The notes under the pieces are model-generated. The model saw only the letters and a list, made by a program, of their open reading frames with translations, made no database searches and was not told the DNA's origin. This document shows, in pieces, positions 12,172-19,823 of a stretch of DNA of 33,464 bases. Each line of letters opens with the position of its first letter. Within the stretch, counting starts at the first letter, position 1. The stretch comes from Clostridiales bacterium (GTDB taxonomy: Bacteria > Bacillota > Clostridia > Christensenellales > JAISNN01), in NCBI GenBank assembly GCA_031273825.1, contig JAISRB010000130.1, forward strand, positions 1-33,464. The letters run 5' to 3'. A program made the position numbers and the translations under genes.

Positions 12172-13428
12172 TCAGCTTTTTAAGCACCCGATCGGAACGA
12201 CGAGAACGCCGTCGGGCCGCTTATAGGCGTAAGGCGTTCCGGTAAGCGTCATCAAAAACGACGGTTCCTTTGGCTCGGCGACCTTGTTTTTTAATTTTAT
12301 CAGGTTTGCCGCCGCCTCGTCTATCATATTTCCGCCTAATTTTATCTCTATCGCGCCCCATCTGCCGTCGGGAAGGTGAACAATAGCGTCGGCTTCCAGA
12401 CCGCTTTCGTCGCGGTAGTGGGAGACCTCGCCGTTTAGGCTTTGCGCGTAAGCTCTCAAATCGCGTTCGCAAAGAGACTCGAACAAAAAGCCGAAGGTCT
12501 TTAGGTCGGCGATTAAATCGTTCGGGTGCGCTCCGAGCGCGTACGCCGCGAGGGAAGGGTCGGCAAATTGCCGCTTGGCCGACGACCTGATAGTAGTCTT
12601 TGACCGAAGCCGCGGCGACCACGCGGAAACGTCGTTGATTACAAAGAGCTTTTCAAACGCCGAAATGTATGAATTGAACGTCGGCTTGGTCATTCCCTTG
12701 TCGTTGGCCTCGATATCCGCCATTATAGTCGCGTTGCTCGCAAAGGTCGATATATGCCTTGCGTAAGAGCGCAATATCGCTTGCGCCCTTTTGGGATTGC
12801 GCTCTATTCCGTCTACGTCGGTTATGTCCTCGGTCGTCAGCGACTTATAATAATATTCAATGAGCGTCGCGGCCTGCTCGGGGCGGACTACCGATTCGGG
12901 CCAGCCGCCCCTACAGACGGCAAAGGCCAGATTTTCGAGGGTCAGCTTTGACGCGCCGTTTATCGTGTCGTTTCCGTCGAATACGCGGGCAAGCGAAACC
13001 TCGCCTGACGAATCCTTTGACTCCCAGAGCGACATGGGATACATGGTTATTTTGGCAATTCTGCCCGTGCCCGTGTGCCTTTTGCCGTCCTCCCGCGGCT
13101 TTGCCGAGCCGGTGAGAATATATTGCCCGACGGAGGAATGCTCGTCTATATCGGCGCGTATAAAGTCCCAAAGAGCCGGAATTTTTTGCCACTCGTCAAA
13201 CATTAACGGCTTTTCCCCGTCGAGCAAAAGCTCTCTGCTTGTCATAGCAAAAGCCGAATAACGGTCAAAGGTCAAGGGGTCTTGCAATTTGACTACGGTT
13301 TTTGCGAACCGCTCCGCCGTCGTCGATTTGCCGCACCACTTAGGGCCTTCGATATATACGCAGCCCAACGCGTCGAGCGCGGCTTTGAACTTGCCGTCTA
13401 AAAGCCTGTTAAAATATTTCTTTGCCAC
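12172..13428 (-). CDS. AAA-type ATPase with DUF4143 C-terminal domain
   Basis: 418 residues from a GTG at 13428, with GGAGG 6 bp upstream. The Walker A motif GPKWCGKST (residues 28-36) is followed by a Walker B-like PLMFDEWQ and a sensor YILTGSAKP. The C-terminal half is DUF4143. It ends in a domain with ESLCERDLRAYA and LEADAIV...IEIKLG, a D...E-x-K arrangement like that of PD-(D/E)xK nucleases. Proteins of this family are widespread in anaerobes and have no settled function. Defence, regulatory and chaperone-like roles have all been considered. The upstream array of about 23-bp repeats is unusual and may bind the protein itself or a regulator. The gene stands alone with its own promoter. 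Confidence 0.9.
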   Translation of the reverse strand: MAKKYFNRLLDGKFKAALDALGCVYIEGPKWCGKSTTAERFAKTVVKLQDPLTFDRYSAFAMTSRELLLDGEKPLMFDEWQKIPALWDFIRADIDEHSSVGQYILTGSAKPREDGKRHTGTGRIAKITMYPMSLWESKDSSGEVSLARVFDGNDTINGASKLTLENLAFAVCRGGWPESVVRPEQAATLIEYYYKSLTTEDITDVDGIERNPKRAQAILRSYARHISTFASNATIMADIEANDKGMTKPTFNSYISAFEKLFVINDVSAWSPRLRSKTTIRSSAKRQFADPSLAAYALGAHPNDLIADLKTFGFLFESLCERDLRAYAQSLNGEVSHYRDESGLEADAIVHLPDGRWGAIEIKLGGNMIDEAAANLIKLKNKVAEPKEPSFLMTLTGTPYAYKRPDGVLVVPIGCLKS

Positions 13429-13450: not shown

Positions 13451-13478
13451 ATTATACTCATATTTGGCAATTTGTCAA
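13451..13478 (-). promoter_or_regulatory. Promoter of the DUF4143 ATPase gene
   Basis: TTGACA (13478-13473) and TATAAT (13456-13451) on the minus strand with a 16-bp spacer. The repeat array starts 10 bp upstream of the -35 box. Confidence 0.8.
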
Positions 13479-13487
13479 GCGTATTTT

Positions 13488-13646
13488 CCATAAAAGGTAA
13501 AATGTAATTTCCATAAAAGGTAAAATTAAAATGGTATTGCCATAAAAGGTAAAATAAAATTATCATAAAAGGTAAAGTGAAGTTACCATAAAAGGTAAAA
13601 TTAAGTTACCATAAAAGGTAAAATAAGTAGTCGTAAAAGGCGAATT
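13488..13646. repeat. Seven-copy tandem repeat array, unit CCATAAAAGGTAAAAT, period about 23 bp
   Basis: Copies begin at 13488, 13511, 13540, 13563, 13586, 13609 and 13631 (spacings 23, 29, 23, 23, 23, 22). The first, second, third, fifth and sixth are exact. The fourth differs slightly and the seventh is degenerate. The core is CC-(A/T)6-GG. The ~7-bp gaps are variable and AT-rich. The array is directly upstream of the ATPase promoter. It looks like an iteron or multi-site operator. The gaps are too short for CRISPR spacers. Confidence 0.95.
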
Positions 13647-13809: not shown

Positions 13810-15093
13810 TTAATTTTTGATTTTCGGCGCGTTCTGCTTATATTTGTTTTTGACCAGCATTGAGTTTAGGCTGTCGGGCAATATTTTGTCGGCGGCGGCG
13901 AGGATTTTGTTTTTTATTCCGACGGCGTGAATAATAGGCGGCAGAGGCGATTCGGCAATCGCTGCAATATCCGCCGCCACCCTTTGCGGCGGCATTCCGT
14001 TTTGCTCGATATCCGCGAGGATAGCGTTAGCCTTCATGAGGCGCGCCTCATAGTCTCCCGTAAGCTCGGGAGGGTAGACCTTGCGCTTTCTGGTGAAACC
14101 CGTCGCCGTGCCGCCCGGCATGACCGACGTGACCCTTATTCCGTAAGGCTCAAGCTCTATGGCGATACTCTTGATAAACATGTTGAGAGCCGCCTTGCTT
14201 GCGCTGTAAAAGCTGTCGAATACTATGGGGAACAGCCCGCCCATAGAACTGACGGCGATTATTCTGCCGCCGCCGTTGCTTCTCATATGCGGAATTATCA
14301 GTTGAACCGCCTTTGCAAAGGCAAAAAAATTGACGTCAAACAGATATCTATAGTCTTGTTCTATCGCGCTTTCGACGGGAGCCGACATAGAAAAGCCCGC
14401 GGAATATACAAAGATATCGACGCTTTGCCGCTCGGCTATTATTTCGTTCACGGCTTTTTGTATGCTTATGTCGTCGGCGGCGTCAAGCGTTATATTGACT
14501 ATGCCGCCGAGCGCGCTTGGCGTCCGCGACGCATTATATACGCGGTAGCCCTTTTCGATAAAAATTTCGGCGGTTTTTTGTCCTATTCCGTCGGACGCGC
14601 CGATTATCAGCACGGTTTTGAGCGCGTTTTGCCGCCGCGCGTCGTCGCCGTCGGTCGAATGAGTCTGCGGATTTTCGCCGTCGGTCGAATGCGTTTGAGA
14701 GCTTTCTCTGTCCGTCGAATAGGCTTGAGAGCTTTCGCCGTCGGTCGAATGGGTTTGCGGATTTTCGCCGTCCGCCGCCGACGCGCCGTCAAAGCCCGAG
14801 CCGGAATCAAAAACCGCCGCGGAGTCATCCGCGGGGTTTGCAAAGGCCTTTTCGGCCGCGCCGCCGTCCTCCGCAAGGCCGTCGGCTTGGCTTGCAAGCG
14901 TTCCGTCGATTGCAAGGTCGTCGGCCGCGCCGCCGTCCTCCGCAAGGCTGTCGGCTTGGCTTGCAAGCGTTCCGTCGATTGCAAGGTCGTCGGCCGCTTC
15001 GATAAAATCGGAAAGATTGTCAAGACGTATATCGTTTTGAGCTTGTTGCTTGTTAAAATCGACGTTGCCGTCATTATAAAATTGTTTTTTCAT
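13810..15093 (-). CDS. Short-chain dehydrogenase/reductase with a long repeat-rich N-terminal extension
   Basis: 427 residues. Residues about 157-427 are a classical SDR. The NAD(P)-binding motif is GASDGIG (165-171), the VSS serine is near 282-283, and Y296-x-x-x-K300 completes the catalytic set. The usual NAG motif is SAG. SDRs oxidise or reduce alcohols and ketones with NAD(P)H; the substrate is unknown. Residues 1-156 are unlike SDRs. They are acidic, low in hydrophobics, and built from two copies of a 23-residue unit (about 34-79) and five copies of a 10-residue unit with core STDGE (about 116-150). No internal Met occurs between residue 1 and the SDR domain, so the extension is probably translated. 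No clear ribosome site precedes the ATG. The gene lies 53 bp behind the Fic gene on the same strand and may be co-transcribed with it. Confidence 0.85.
   Translation of the reverse strand: MKKQFYNDGNVDFNKQQAQNDIRLDNLSDFIEAADDLAIDGTLASQADSLAEDGGAADDLAIDGTLASQADGLAEDGGAAEKAFANPADDSAAVFDSGSGFDGASAADGENPQTHSTDGESSQAYSTDRESSQTHSTDGENPQTHSTDGDDARRQNALKTVLIIGASDGIGQKTAEIFIEKGYRVYNASRTPSALGGIVNITLDAADDISIQKAVNEIIAERQSVDIFVYSAGFSMSAPVESAIEQDYRYLFDVNFFAFAKAVQLIIPHMRSNGGGRIIAVSSMGGLFPIVFDSFYSASKAALNMFIKSIAIELEPYGIRVTSVMPGGTATGFTRKRKVYPPELTGDYEARLMKANAILADIEQNGMPPQRVAADIAAIAESPLPPIIHAVGIKNKILAAADKILPDSLNSMLVKNKYKQNAPKIKN
14641..14770. repeat. 30-bp tandem repeat inside the SDR gene (about 4.3 copies)
   Basis: Units start at 14641, 14671, 14701, 14731 and 14761, each carrying TCGGTCGAAT or a one-base variant at the same offset. 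The period is a multiple of three, so copy number can change without breaking the frame. It encodes a ten-residue STDGE-type repeat. Confidence 0.9.
14852..14989. repeat. 69-bp tandem duplication inside the SDR gene
   Basis: 14852-14920 and 14921-14989 agree at 68 of 69 positions. They encode two adjacent 23-residue acidic units. The near identity points to a recent expansion by slippage or unequal exchange, in frame. Confidence 0.95.
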
Positions 15094-15146: not shown

Positions 15147-16079
15147 TTAATTTTCGTCGCTCATAAAATAGTCGATGATAGCCCTATATTTATCCTGTCC
15201 GGCCTTGCAGGTGTCCGACAGATATCCGCGCTCGTTAGGCCATTCCTTGAATCCGCGATAATAAAACAAGCGCAAATTCTCGTCGATGATAAACGGCGTT
15301 ATGTCAAAACGCAAGCATTCCTTAAAGGCGACAAGGCGGCCGACTCTGCCGTTGCCGTCTTGAAAGGGGTGAATAGCCTCGAACTCCCTATGAAAAGCGA
15401 TAATGTCCTCGATAGCCGGATGCGGCAGCTTGCCGTAGTCGGCGAGTAATTTTTGAAGAGCGGCGGCGACTTTTTTGGGGGGAGTCGTCGGCATATCTCC
15501 GACGGCGTTGGGTTTTTTTTTGTAATCTCCGACGGCGAACCAATCCTTGCTGCTGTCCGAGGTATTCGACTTTAGTAGCCTATGAAATTCTTTGATAATA
15601 TCCTCCGTCAGCGGCTCGCTCGCCTTGTCGAGCGCGTAGTCGATACAGCGAAAGTGGTTTGAGGTTTCGGCAATATCGTCGACGTTGACGGTTTTGTCGG
15701 CTTCTAAGCCGATCGTGTTTGTTTCAAAAATATAGCGGGTTTGGTCTTTGGTAAGCTTGCCGCCTTCGATATGGTTTGAATTATATGTCATTTCGATTTG
15801 AGTTTGATGATACAGGCCGCCTTTGAGTTTCATGGCTTTTTCCTCGCGCAAAACGGAAAGAAGGCGGCCTACGGGCTGCGCGTCGGCGGAAACGGAAAGA
15901 ATATCGCCTATATTACAGTCAAGCGCGCGGCAAATATCCTCTATGACCTTCATGGCTACATAATCGCCGTTGCCGAGCTTTGCGAGCGTACGCGACGATA
16001 TGCCGGCTTTTTTAGCCAAAGCCGTCTTAGAAAGCCCTTTTGTTTTTAACAGCGCGAATAGCCCGTCGTAACTAATCAT
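15147..16079 (-). CDS. Fic-domain protein with N-terminal XRE helix-turn-helix and inhibitory motif
   Basis: 310 residues from the ATG at 16079, preceded by GAGGG; an upstream in-frame ATG at 16148 lies in the operator region. Residues about 5-60 are an XRE HTH (KTALAKKAGISSRTLAKLG) of the same type as the R-M regulator. Residues about 95-310 are a Fic domain. The core H237PFQDGNGRVGR248 is complete, so AMP transfer (or another NMP/phosphocholine transfer) from a nucleotide to a target protein is expected. S101NHIEG106 matches the (S/T)xxxE(G/N) motif whose Glu blocks ATP binding, so the enzyme carries its own brake on the N-terminal side. HTH-Fic proteins often repress themselves. The repeated dyad upstream fits that. 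Confidence 0.92.
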   Translation of the reverse strand: MISYDGLFALLKTKGLSKTALAKKAGISSRTLAKLGNGDYVAMKVIEDICRALDCNIGDILSVSADAQPVGRLLSVLREEKAMKLKGGLYHQTQIEMTYNSNHIEGGKLTKDQTRYIFETNTIGLEADKTVNVDDIAETSNHFRCIDYALDKASEPLTEDIIKEFHRLLKSNTSDSSKDWFAVGDYKKKPNAVGDMPTTPPKKVAAALQKLLADYGKLPHPAIEDIIAFHREFEAIHPFQDGNGRVGRLVAFKECLRFDITPFIIDENLRLFYYRGFKEWPNERGYLSDTCKAGQDKYRAIIDYFMSDEN

Positions 16080-16100
16080 AAATAGCCCTCGCTTTAATAA

Positions 16101-16180
16101 GTTAAATATAGTATAGCATAAATCTTTAACATAGTAAAGCAATTTCATGCCTTATGCAAAAAAGCTTTAACATAGTAAAG
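16101..16180 (-). promoter_or_regulatory. Fic promoter with two exact operator copies and a third degenerate one
   Basis: CTTTAACATAGTAAAG occurs exactly at 16124-16139 and 16165-16180. Its ends CTTTA/TAAAG are inverted, as for a dimeric HTH protein. A 12-of-16 match lies at 16101-16116. On the minus strand a promoter TTTACT (16138-16133), 17 bp, TATACT (16115-16110) overlaps the first and the degenerate copy. A bound repressor would therefore cover both promoter boxes. Confidence 0.75.
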
Positions 16181-17476: not shown

Positions 17477-17965
17477 ATGGGAGAACTCGGAATTTCCTTA
17501 GAGGGTATACTATTGCACCTCGCGGCGCTTATCGCCGTCGCGGTCATAGTTTATTTTACCCTTTATAAGCGGATAAAAGGTTTTATGGACAGGCGGGTAA
17601 AGGAATACGCCGACGCGGAGGAGAGCATTGCCGCCGAAAAAAAACAGGCGGACGAGCTAAAGGCGCAATACGCCGTATTGGTCGACAAGGCCAACGGCAG
17701 AATAGCTCAAATCAACGAGGAGGCGGCGGCCGCCGCCGAGCTTCAGGCCAAGGCTATCATCGACGGCGCAAAAAAGAACGCCAAGCTAATAGTCGAAAAG
17801 GCGAGCGGCGACATGCTGATAGAGCGGGCCAAGATGAAGGCCGAATTCAAAAACGAGGTTGCCGAAATCGCCGTCGACATAGCCGGCAAAATTTTGATGA
17901 GAGAGATAAAAAACGCGGACACCGAAAAGGTAATCGACGAATGTCTCGGTGAATGGACAAAGTGA
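17477..17965 (+). CDS. atpF: F-type ATP synthase subunit b (peripheral stalk)
   Basis: 162 residues with TTAGGAGAAAC upstream. One N-terminal membrane helix (about residues 10-30) is followed by a long charged helix rich in Ala, Glu and Lys, ending EIAVDIAGKIL, as expected for the dimeric right-handed coiled coil of the stator. The length is normal, so it does not contain the missing N-terminal domain of delta. The gene ends 4 bp before the best ATG of the delta-alpha fusion. Its C-terminus is the part that binds the delta C-terminal domain in other F-ATPases. Confidence 0.92.
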   Translation: MGELGISLEGILLHLAALIAVAVIVYFTLYKRIKGFMDRRVKEYADAEESIAAEKKQADELKAQYAVLVDKANGRIAQINEEAAAAAELQAKAIIDGAKKNAKLIVEKASGDMLIERAKMKAEFKNEVAEIAVDIAGKILMREIKNADTEKVIDECLGEWTK

Positions 17966-17969
17966 TTTT

Positions 17970-19823
17970 ATGCCAAGAATTATTATCGTAAAGTCGGCGT
18001 CTGCTCTCGACGACAAAAAAAAGCAGCTGATAATAACCGCCTTCAAGGACAAATACGGAGAGGATTCCTCGTATTCTTTTGTCGTTGACAAAAACGTCAT
18101 AGGCGGTTTTATGATAATAGACGGTGAAAACGTCTACGACGCGACATATTTTTCCGCGCTGTCAAAGATAAAGGATTCTCTCAAGGGCTTTGGCGGTCTC
18201 GACGCGGCGCAGTTAAAGGCCGACGGCTTTTTTGACGGCAAGGACGGACTCGATTCGCTCAAAAGCGCGTTAAAGAGCTACGCCGCCGAAAAAATAGAGT
18301 TGTCGTCAGATTCCGTCAAGGCAGGCGCGTCGGGAGACGGAATAGCCTCCTTTAAGGAAAAGATAAGAGAATACGTCCGCGACTACGACGTAGTCCAAGG
18401 CGGCAAGATGATTTCGTCGCAGGACGGCGTCATCAAAATCTCGGGGCTGAACAACTGCAAATACGGAGAGCTGCTAAAGATAGAGGGCGACAAGTACGCG
18501 ATCGCCATGAATCTCGAGGAAAACTGCGTCGGCGCGGTGTTGCTGTGCAATCCCGATGAGATAAACGTCGACGCGGTGGTATATTCGACGGGCAAGGTCG
18601 TCGAGGTTCCGGTAGGCGACGCGCTTATCGGGCGCGTCGTCAATCCGTTGGGGCTGCCCATAGACGGCAAGGGCGACGTTCACGCGTCGAAATGCAGGAG
18701 AATAGAAAGCCCCGCGCCGCAAATTGTCGAGAGAGGCACGGTCGACGAGCCGCTTGAAACGGGAATACTCGCGTTAGATTCGATGATACCCATAGGCAAG
18801 GGGCAGAGAGAATTGATAATCGGCGACAGACAGACGGGCAAAACGGCGATAGCTCTCGACGCTATTCTCAACCAAAAGGGCAAAAACGTCTATTGCGTCT
18901 ATGTCGCCATAGGTCAAAAGGCCTCGAGCGTCGCAAAAATCGTCAAGGATTTGGAGGAATACGACGCTATGTCATACACCGTAGTCGTCAACGCAAGCTC
19001 CAAAGACCCCGCGCCGCTGCAATATATCGCGCCGTTTGCCGGCTGCGCCATGGCCGAGGAGTTTATGTACGGCGGCCGCGACGTTCTCATAGTCTATGAC
19101 GATCTGACAAAGCACGCCGTGGCCTATAGGACGCTGTCGCTTTTGCTCAAACGTCCGTCGGGCAGGGAGGCTTATCCCGGAGATATATTCTATCTGCATT
19201 CGCGCCTTTTGGAGCGGGCGGCAAAGCTGTCCTTAGAAAAGGGCGGCGGCTCGATGACGGCTCTGCCGATAATCGAGACGCTTGCCGGAGACATATCGGC
19301 GTATATTCCGACAAACGTCATTTCTATAACAGACGGACAGATTTTTCTCGAATCACAGCTTTTCAATTCGGGAATAAGGCCGGCGGTCAACGTCGGGCTT
19401 TCGGTGTCGAGGGTCGGCGGCGCGGCTCAAACCAAGGCCATGCGGCAGGTCAGCGGCAAGCTGAGGCTCGACCTTGCGCACTACAGAGAGTTAGAGGTCT
19501 TTTCGCAGTTCGGCTCAGACTTAGACCGGACGACGTGCGACGTGTTGGAGCACGGCAAAAAGACGGTCGAGGCTCTGAAACAGGCTCAATATTTTCATAT
19601 GAGCACGGAGCGGCAGATAATCTGCCTTTACGCCGTCATAAGCGGCTGTCTAAAGACGGTAGAGCCGGAAAGAGCCGCGAGGTTTTTGGACGGTCTATAT
19701 AAGCATATCGAGACCGGCTCGCCCGAAATAATATCAAAGCTAAGAGAGACAAACCGGCTTATGAAAGAGACGACCGACGCTATCGACGCGGCGGCCGCGC
19801 AGTATCTCGACTATTTTAAATAG
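17970..19823 (+). CDS. atpA: Fusion of ATP synthase delta C-terminal domain with subunit alpha
   Basis: 617 residues; the ATG at 17970 is taken, while one at 17949 overlaps atpF. Residues 1-72 match the C-terminal domain of subunit delta: strand RIIIVKSASAL, a helix, then VDKNVIGGFMIIDGENVYDAT, and a final helix SALSKIKDSL. The alpha-helical N-terminal domain of delta (about 105 residues) is absent. Residues 73-122 are a linker. From about 123 to 617 the protein is a complete alpha subunit: the N-terminal barrel (GLNNCKYGELL), Walker A GDRQTGKT (285-292), and SVSRVGGAAQTKAMRQ with the arginine finger. The frame is continuous and no strong internal start is seen before the alpha barrel. Hence all alpha subunits should carry the extra domain unless it is cleaved. 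No separate atpH exists in the operon. Confidence 0.95.
   Translation: MPRIIIVKSASALDDKKKQLIITAFKDKYGEDSSYSFVVDKNVIGGFMIIDGENVYDATYFSALSKIKDSLKGFGGLDAAQLKADGFFDGKDGLDSLKSALKSYAAEKIELSSDSVKAGASGDGIASFKEKIREYVRDYDVVQGGKMISSQDGVIKISGLNNCKYGELLKIEGDKYAIAMNLEENCVGAVLLCNPDEINVDAVVYSTGKVVEVPVGDALIGRVVNPLGLPIDGKGDVHASKCRRIESPAPQIVERGTVDEPLETGILALDSMIPIGKGQRELIIGDRQTGKTAIALDAILNQKGKNVYCVYVAIGQKASSVAKIVKDLEEYDAMSYTVVVNASSKDPAPLQYIAPFAGCAMAEEFMYGGRDVLIVYDDLTKHAVAYRTLSLLLKRPSGREAYPGDIFYLHSRLLERAAKLSLEKGGGSMTALPIIETLAGDISAYIPTNVISITDGQIFLESQLFNSGIRPAVNVGLSVSRVGGAAQTKAMRQVSGKLRLDLAHYRELEVFSQFGSDLDRTTCDVLEHGKKTVEALKQAQYFHMSTERQIICLYAVISGCLKTVEPERAARFLDGLYKHIETGSPEIISKLRETNRLMKETTDAIDAAAAQYLDYFK

Follow-up and report, generated by a model that had tools for sequence, protein, structure and literature searches.

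Plasmid iterons and centromere-type operators are direct repeats of about two helical turns that are bound by the autoregulating product of the adjacent gene. Autorepression from direct repeats has also been described in a defence island, where RptR, a separate repressor of 9 kDa whose site is a conserved 6-bp palindrome, acts on direct repeats over its own promoter and controls defence genes (available part of PMC12255303). PDC-S01, a candidate single-gene defence family of PADLOC in which an ATPase is fused to a PD-(D/E)xK nuclease, is ranked fourth in frequency among the defences of prokaryotes; PDCs are mostly without validation, and PDC-S01 is a candidate only (available part of PMC12988326). 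The accessible portions of that paper and of PMC13356809 make no mention of upstream repeats, DNA specificity or autoregulation in PDC-S01, and we found no description of promoter arrays at DUF4143, COG1373, AAA_14 or PDC-S01 genes in the open-access PMC literature, preprints aside. Here we describe a direct-repeat array at the promoter of such an ATPase gene in a Clostridiales genome and trace arrays of this kind across the DUF4143 family.

Results

A direct-repeat array upstream of the ATPase gene

The window (the whole stretch of DNA analysed, 33,464 nt) contains an array of direct repeats flanked by an SDR gene and the gene of a 418-residue ATPase (Table 1). Copies of the unit CCATAAAAGGTAAAAT start at 13488, 13511, 13540, 13563, 13586, 13609 and 13631, with successive spacings of 23, 29, 23, 23, 23 and 22 bp; five are exact, the copy at 13563 has two mismatches, and the one at 13631 is degenerate, with five. 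The array upstream of the ATPase promoter, proposed in an initial annotation of this DNA, is thus real: at lag 23 it matches itself with a score of 53.5, whereas none of 500 dinucleotide shuffles exceeds 16.0, and it scores highest among 605 overlapping 220-bp windows. The measured spacings likewise bear out the 22- to 23-bp periodicity with a single 29-bp gap that had been claimed. With up to three mismatches allowed, the pattern matches seven times in the 33,464 nt, six of them inside the array, against an expectation of 0.82.

Two other claims of that annotation had to be given up. The sites had been said to lie on nearly the same face of the DNA; with 10.5 bp to the turn, 23 bp makes 2.19 turns, so each site is offset by about 69 degrees from the one before and the array winds round the helix, and the 29-bp gap shifts the helical phase still more. 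The pattern CC(A/T)6GG, taken to define the unit, proved to be a coincidence of this member, being absent from the family consensus gccAAAntncnnAaTaAAAtnnc; a CArG-box or MADS site was rejected for the same reason.

Table 1. Positions of features at the ATPase locus in the window
Feature	Position	Strand	Basis or comment
AAA_14 + DUF4143 ATPase with PD-(D/E)xK nuclease-like C-terminus, 418 aa	12172..13428	-	Pfam; PADLOC PDLC04790, E 3e-61
Hairpin beside nuclease residues E345/D347, codons about 337-344	12397..12420	-	By arithmetic from 13428; residue 341
Start of predicted recognition helix (residues 248-260), codons 246-258	12655..12693	-	Position by arithmetic from 13428; residue 249 is Pro
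ATPase promoter, TTGACA-16-TATAAT	13451..13478	-	12/12 consensus bases
Array of 7 direct repeats (6 good, 1 degenerate)	13488..13646	+	Unit CCATAAAAGGTAAAAT + 7-bp spacer; predicted private ATPase-binding array
Inverted repeat, 18-nt arms, 94% complementary, 7-nt loop	13649..13691	.	Between upstream SDR gene and array

The -35 hexamer (13473-13478) lies 9 bp from the nearest copy of CCATAAAAGGTAAAAT. On the far side of the array, the inverted repeat is terminator-like, without the T run demanded by our terminator scan, which found no terminator-like site. The SDR gene itself carries internal tandem repeats in an N-terminal extension (14645-14997; 30 bp × 4.3 and 69 bp × 2.1). Also near the ATPase gene is a gene for a Fic-domain protein with an N-terminal Cro/C1-type helix-turn-helix (15147-16148), and a single 624-aa frame at 17949-19823 holds C-terminal OSCP (delta) and ATP synthase alpha/beta domains in an apparent fusion.

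The unit is private to its array. All five mismatch-free copies of CCATAAAAGGTAAAAT in the locus's own genome lie within it; the next-best sites, with two mismatches, are the array's fourth copy and three elsewhere, and the rest are near the level of a reversed-pattern control. The repeat therefore does not turn up at random loci in its genome, where no copy with fewer than two mismatches lies outside the array, and with paired units found in 0 of 100 relatives we rejected a shared regulon motif. A collection of genome contigs, from which near-identical genomes may be left out, yielded no unit either. The same genome has 10 DUF4143 matches, several of which have different promoter repeats of their own, as is the case in most of the genus. 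The expectation that this unit would accompany related DUF4143 genes thus held for the presence of arrays and failed for the unit: each gene has its own. Units of paralogs were found to differ within one genome both here (4 paralogs) and in an archaeon (18 compared).

Arrays are a general feature of the subclass

We scanned 84,980 species genomes and confirmed at least 577 relatives, of which 80 were kept; judged by record title, they come from Bacteroidota, Bacillota, Spirochaetota, Actinomycetota, Kiritimatiellae, archaea and others. We sorted the genes by P-loop into classes defined by our own regular expressions (KW, 'KPLLL', 'RR' and 'TG'), in samples that lean towards family-rich genomes. 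In the first sample, the upstream regions of 92 of 98 genes with a GPKWCGK-type P-loop scored above all 40 of their shuffles, with the best lag at 23 in 78 and at 46 in 10. A score of at least 12 at lag 23 or 46 was reached by 90 of these 98 genes and by 2 of 149 upstream regions of neighbouring genes. Both of the latter proved to belong to nearby ATPases of this kind, and no non-ATPase control had an array of its own. The other 30 DUF4143 genes of this sample scored above all shuffles in 18 cases, at other lags.

When all samples were pooled without duplicates and arrays called at a score of at least 14, arrays were present at 138 of 160 KW-class (GPKWCGK) genes (lag 23 in 123, 46 in 12, others in 3), and 22 of the 160 fell below threshold. 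Relatives lacking any array, which the initial annotation had named as evidence against its proposal, are thus the minority. The other classes had arrays at 25 of 45 genes ('KPLLL', 32-33 bp in 20), 11 of 28 ('RR', 39-42 bp in 9) and 6 of 24 ('TG'), and 3 of 4 unclassified genes had one. We conclude that promoter arrays are a general rule of the KW subclass, in bacteria as well as archaea, and that array periods are fixed and class-specific. Folding 90 arrays to a single unit each gave the consensus gccAAAntncnnAaTaAAAtnnc, with conserved flanks and almost free core positions 7-12. Array size reached 11 copies, and 42 of 114 arrays had only two copies above threshold.

Array and gene appear to travel together. 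We compared 12 pairs of similar homologs, the two members of each coming from different records. The DNA they share begins at the array or at the start of the gene and continues to roughly the stop codon; it took in the array in 10 pairs and stopped within about 20 bp of the stop codon in 11, the L098/L101 pair being one in which it ran beyond. No conserved partner gene was found across 86 loci, where the commonest neighbour was another DUF4143 ATPase (9). An empty-site test for a mobile cassette found no synteny with the single relative compared (G001). On viral contigs, the number of confirmed close relatives was 0 with a single-protein query and 8 with an alignment query.

Individual members add some detail. 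The 'RR'-class DUF4143 genes L018, from the locus's own genome, and L050-L055 have 39-42 bp arrays; the units of L018 are palindromic (TTTTGTCGG..CCGACAAAA), which suggests dimer sites. A Methanomassiliicoccaceae archaeon (G166, locus L077) has 48 DUF4143 matches in a 1.6-Mb genome, and most of the genes examined from it (L203-L232) have their own array of 23 or 32-33 bp. A Collinsella member with Gln249 has an array at lag 23. No array was found at a DUF4143 gene of another class on plasmid pTT27 of Thermus thermophilus HB27 (L356). Judging by its domains and position, this gene would be TT_P0211, which was 6.6-fold up in a plasmid-bearing, Argonaute-positive strain according to the accessible part of a transcriptome report (PMC4406477).

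The ATPase

The ATPase matches the Pfam profiles AAA_14 and DUF4143 and the PDC-S01 profile of PADLOC, whose PDC-S01 models were matched by all four DUF4143 classes tested, that is, by the locus ATPase and three other classes; its role in phage defence is that of a database candidate. Searches of NCBIfam and PHROGs gave no match. Walker A/B residues are kept in 153 of 153 sequences and the nuclease residues D347, E361 and K363 in 152/152, 151/152 and 152/152, respectively; both sets are intact in the locus protein. An AlphaFold2 model built from 115 sequences (pLDDT 94, pTM 0.93) replaced an earlier, poor one from 13 sequences (pLDDT 65), which was set aside. Its best fold matches are the archaeal AAA+/STAND-like ATPases SSO1545 (2fna) and PABY2304 (2qen), with Z of 14.4 and 15.4 over residues 1-299, so that the nuclease-like domain is not covered; a weak solved-structure match, 9deh (E 0.032), was set aside. 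At the level of the modelled fold, the protein would thus combine an AAA+ NTPase with a winged helix, as SSO1545-like STAND proteins do. Residue 249 starts helix 248-260 of the model, the third helix of a domain that, from the model and the SSO1545-like fold match, is predicted to be the winged helix. In the nuclease-like domain, residue 341 sits in the hairpin that joins strands 334-340 and 345-351.

Units coevolve with ATPase residues

The units follow the ATPases (Mantel r 0.43; 0/2000 permutations; N=87). We calculated partial r after removal of overall protein distance, with columns picked by gap and conservation filters only; same-record duplicates (L057, L106, L144, L189, L206, L236, L247 and L255) and truncated or cut loci were omitted from the statistics. 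Residue 249 was the standout column for the unit core, with a partial r of 0.36 (next column, 0.10; largest of 300 permutations, 0.13). Its pairing with position 11 was the top pair overall (partial r 0.49, N=114), and position 12 was tracked as well. For positions 1-3, the standout column was residue 341. After addition of the hold-outs (N=144), the pairs of residue 249 with positions 11 and 12 came first and second by z (8.1 and 6.5), the largest raw r being that of residue 270 with position 5 (0.48).

On a tree of the 144 sequences (286 branches), residue 249 and position 11 changed 55 and 46 times and did so jointly on 25 branches (p 3e-9, or 2e-5 after multiplication by all 7,797 column-position pairs), which placed residue 249 first among 331 columns for this position. 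In 10 of 11 cases, gain or loss of Lys/Arg at 249 shared its branch with gain or loss of G at position 11 (p 8e-12). In the simplest test, a contrast of sister pairs, residue 249 was second of 292 columns. The residue goes with particular bases at position 11: Lys with G in 36/36, Arg with G in 7/8, Pro with A in 17/21 and Asp with C in 14/20. The pairing of Lys and Arg with G is the preference expected of direct contacts. In its class, the Pro249 of the locus ATPase goes with A at positions 11-13. In the tree test, residue 341 ranked 1, 4 and 2 for unit positions 1, 2 and 3, and Lys341 went with C at position 2 and at position 3 in 47/49 cases each.

Prediction of the base in hold-outs was correct in 13 of 26 cases, where 8.2 would be expected (p 0.033), and in 9 of the 19 hold-outs at least 55% identical to training sequences. 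Excluded beforehand were 26 sequences that lack the P-loop motif, 21 that share 90% identity or more with training sequences and 4 internal duplicates; of 39 hold-outs, 9 lacked a usable array. Thr249 was predicted wrongly in 3 of 3 cases, as was the single Pro249, and the failures may in part come from misphased units and a remote subgroup with identities in the 40s per cent. Plasmid members outside the training set, read by eye, fit the pattern: Bacteroides ovatus and B. uniformis have Asp249 and C at position 11, and L. hilgardii has Pro249 and GTAAAAT. The coevolution is thus strong, and prediction for a single member is not reliable. With the unit covarying with residues 249 and 341, the initial suggestion of the ATPase as a candidate binder gains support, and this covariation makes the ATPase the likely binder of its own array.

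Arrays are phased to the promoter

The arrays are located at the genes' own promoters, as expected of an operator. TATAAT-like hexamers cluster 19-22, 41-45 and 63-66 bp past the last strong unit, that is, at about 20 bp plus multiples of 23 bp; 8, 27 and 11 of 96 genes fall into these clusters, where about 19 in all would be expected for an even distribution over 5-70 bp. Many last units contain the -35 hexamer TTGACA. This position and phasing also lend support to the early guess of a self-regulating system.

A leave-one-out test favoured the direction of the gene for 101 of 106 arrays, and the array of this locus was the clearest reversed one of the 106 (margin -5.2; next, -1.9). GTAAAAT, seen in the region of positions 11-13 in Pro249 relatives, occurs in the locus unit only on the strand opposite to the gene. 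The array thus seems to be inverted relative to most of the family, and since its proximal copy also ends short of the -35 hexamer, direct promoter overlap is not seen at this locus.

Discussion

We propose that the array is a private operator of the adjacent ATPase, which most likely represses its own promoter. Each 23-bp unit would be bound by one protein unit, with the predicted recognition helix reading the variable core (positions 11-12) through residue 249 and the hairpin of the nuclease-like domain reading positions 1-3 through residue 341; the A-rich positions of the unit would be common to the whole family. Several copies bound side by side would cover the core promoter, so that the ATPase would shut off its own strong promoter and thereby restrain a potentially harmful nuclease. 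Although we infer binding, cooperativity, repression and nuclease restraint alike, autorepression is the best reading because the units keep phase with the core promoter and in many cases include the -35 box; and with a strong promoter, conserved nuclease residues and a one-gene system, covering of the promoter is the simplest account. The inverted array of this locus is compatible with it, since a blocking operator would tolerate inversion.

Much of the same evidence could be read as pointing to a tether or assembly site, at which a filament of the ATPase would be held inactive or poised and promoter control would be secondary. A period fixed within each class while the core varies, arrays beyond the size needed by a simple operator, near-invariant Walker and nuclease residues, and oligomerising STAND proteins among the structural neighbours (CED-4 and NLR resistosomes, Z about 11-12) would suit such a filament. 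We nevertheless consider it rather unlikely, given that the arrays sit at the promoter and in phase with it and that so many have only two copies. A more far-reaching and equally doubtful picture is that the DUF4143/PDC-S01 cassette is a selfish or defensive unit of one gene and its private 'address' array, on which the nuclease-ATPase would assemble as a poised filament; an evolvable code would keep dozens of such cassettes in one cell mutually blind, and the nuclease would be released or redirected whenever an address is lost, is copied or arrives, for instance with a rival element entering the cell. The ATPase might also activate its promoter from the array, as units upstream of the -35 box occupy a usual place for an activator and IniR, an SSO1545-like ATPase, binds and activates a promoter (accessible part of PMC5760070). 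Yet the promoter of this locus already has full consensus, the -35 hexamer often lies inside the last unit, and the core promoters beside the arrays differ in kind (sigma-70-like, Bacteroidota-type, archaeal TATA), for which steric blocking is better suited than specific polymerase contacts; activation thus appears very unlikely.

It is scarcely credible that a host transcription factor binds the arrays in place of the ATPase: paralogs within one genome have different units, which one host factor cannot serve, the units track the ATPase tree and particular ATPase residues, and no conserved partner gene was found across the 86 loci. Tandem repeats beside a possibly harmful gene also recall repeats acting as RNA, either as an antitoxin in the style of type III toxin-antitoxin systems or in a CRISPR-like way, to which we assign hardly any probability. 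The array lies upstream of the -35 box and so outside the transcript, no Rfam family was found at the gathering score, and the constant 23-bp period and the phasing to the promoter are in keeping with duplex DNA; CRISPR-like spacers would be longer and unique. A type III toxin-antitoxin assignment was rejected in particular, the repeats not lying between promoter and toxin.

Autorepression from a private operator would bear on a family reported as the fourth commonest candidate defence yet still without experimental validation (accessible part of PMC12988326). If the private arrays are bound by a readable code, the DNA target of each member would be known from sequence alone, private binding would account for the coexistence of numerous paralogs in a single genome, and the family would supply a large collection of recognition residues paired by nature with their sites.

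We know of no arrays at SSO1545 or PABY2304. The present arrays differ from iterons and centromere-type operators in residing on chromosome-like contigs, beside a single gene and without replication or partition partners. They differ from the RptR repeats in that the effector itself is the predicted regulator and each gene has its own site.
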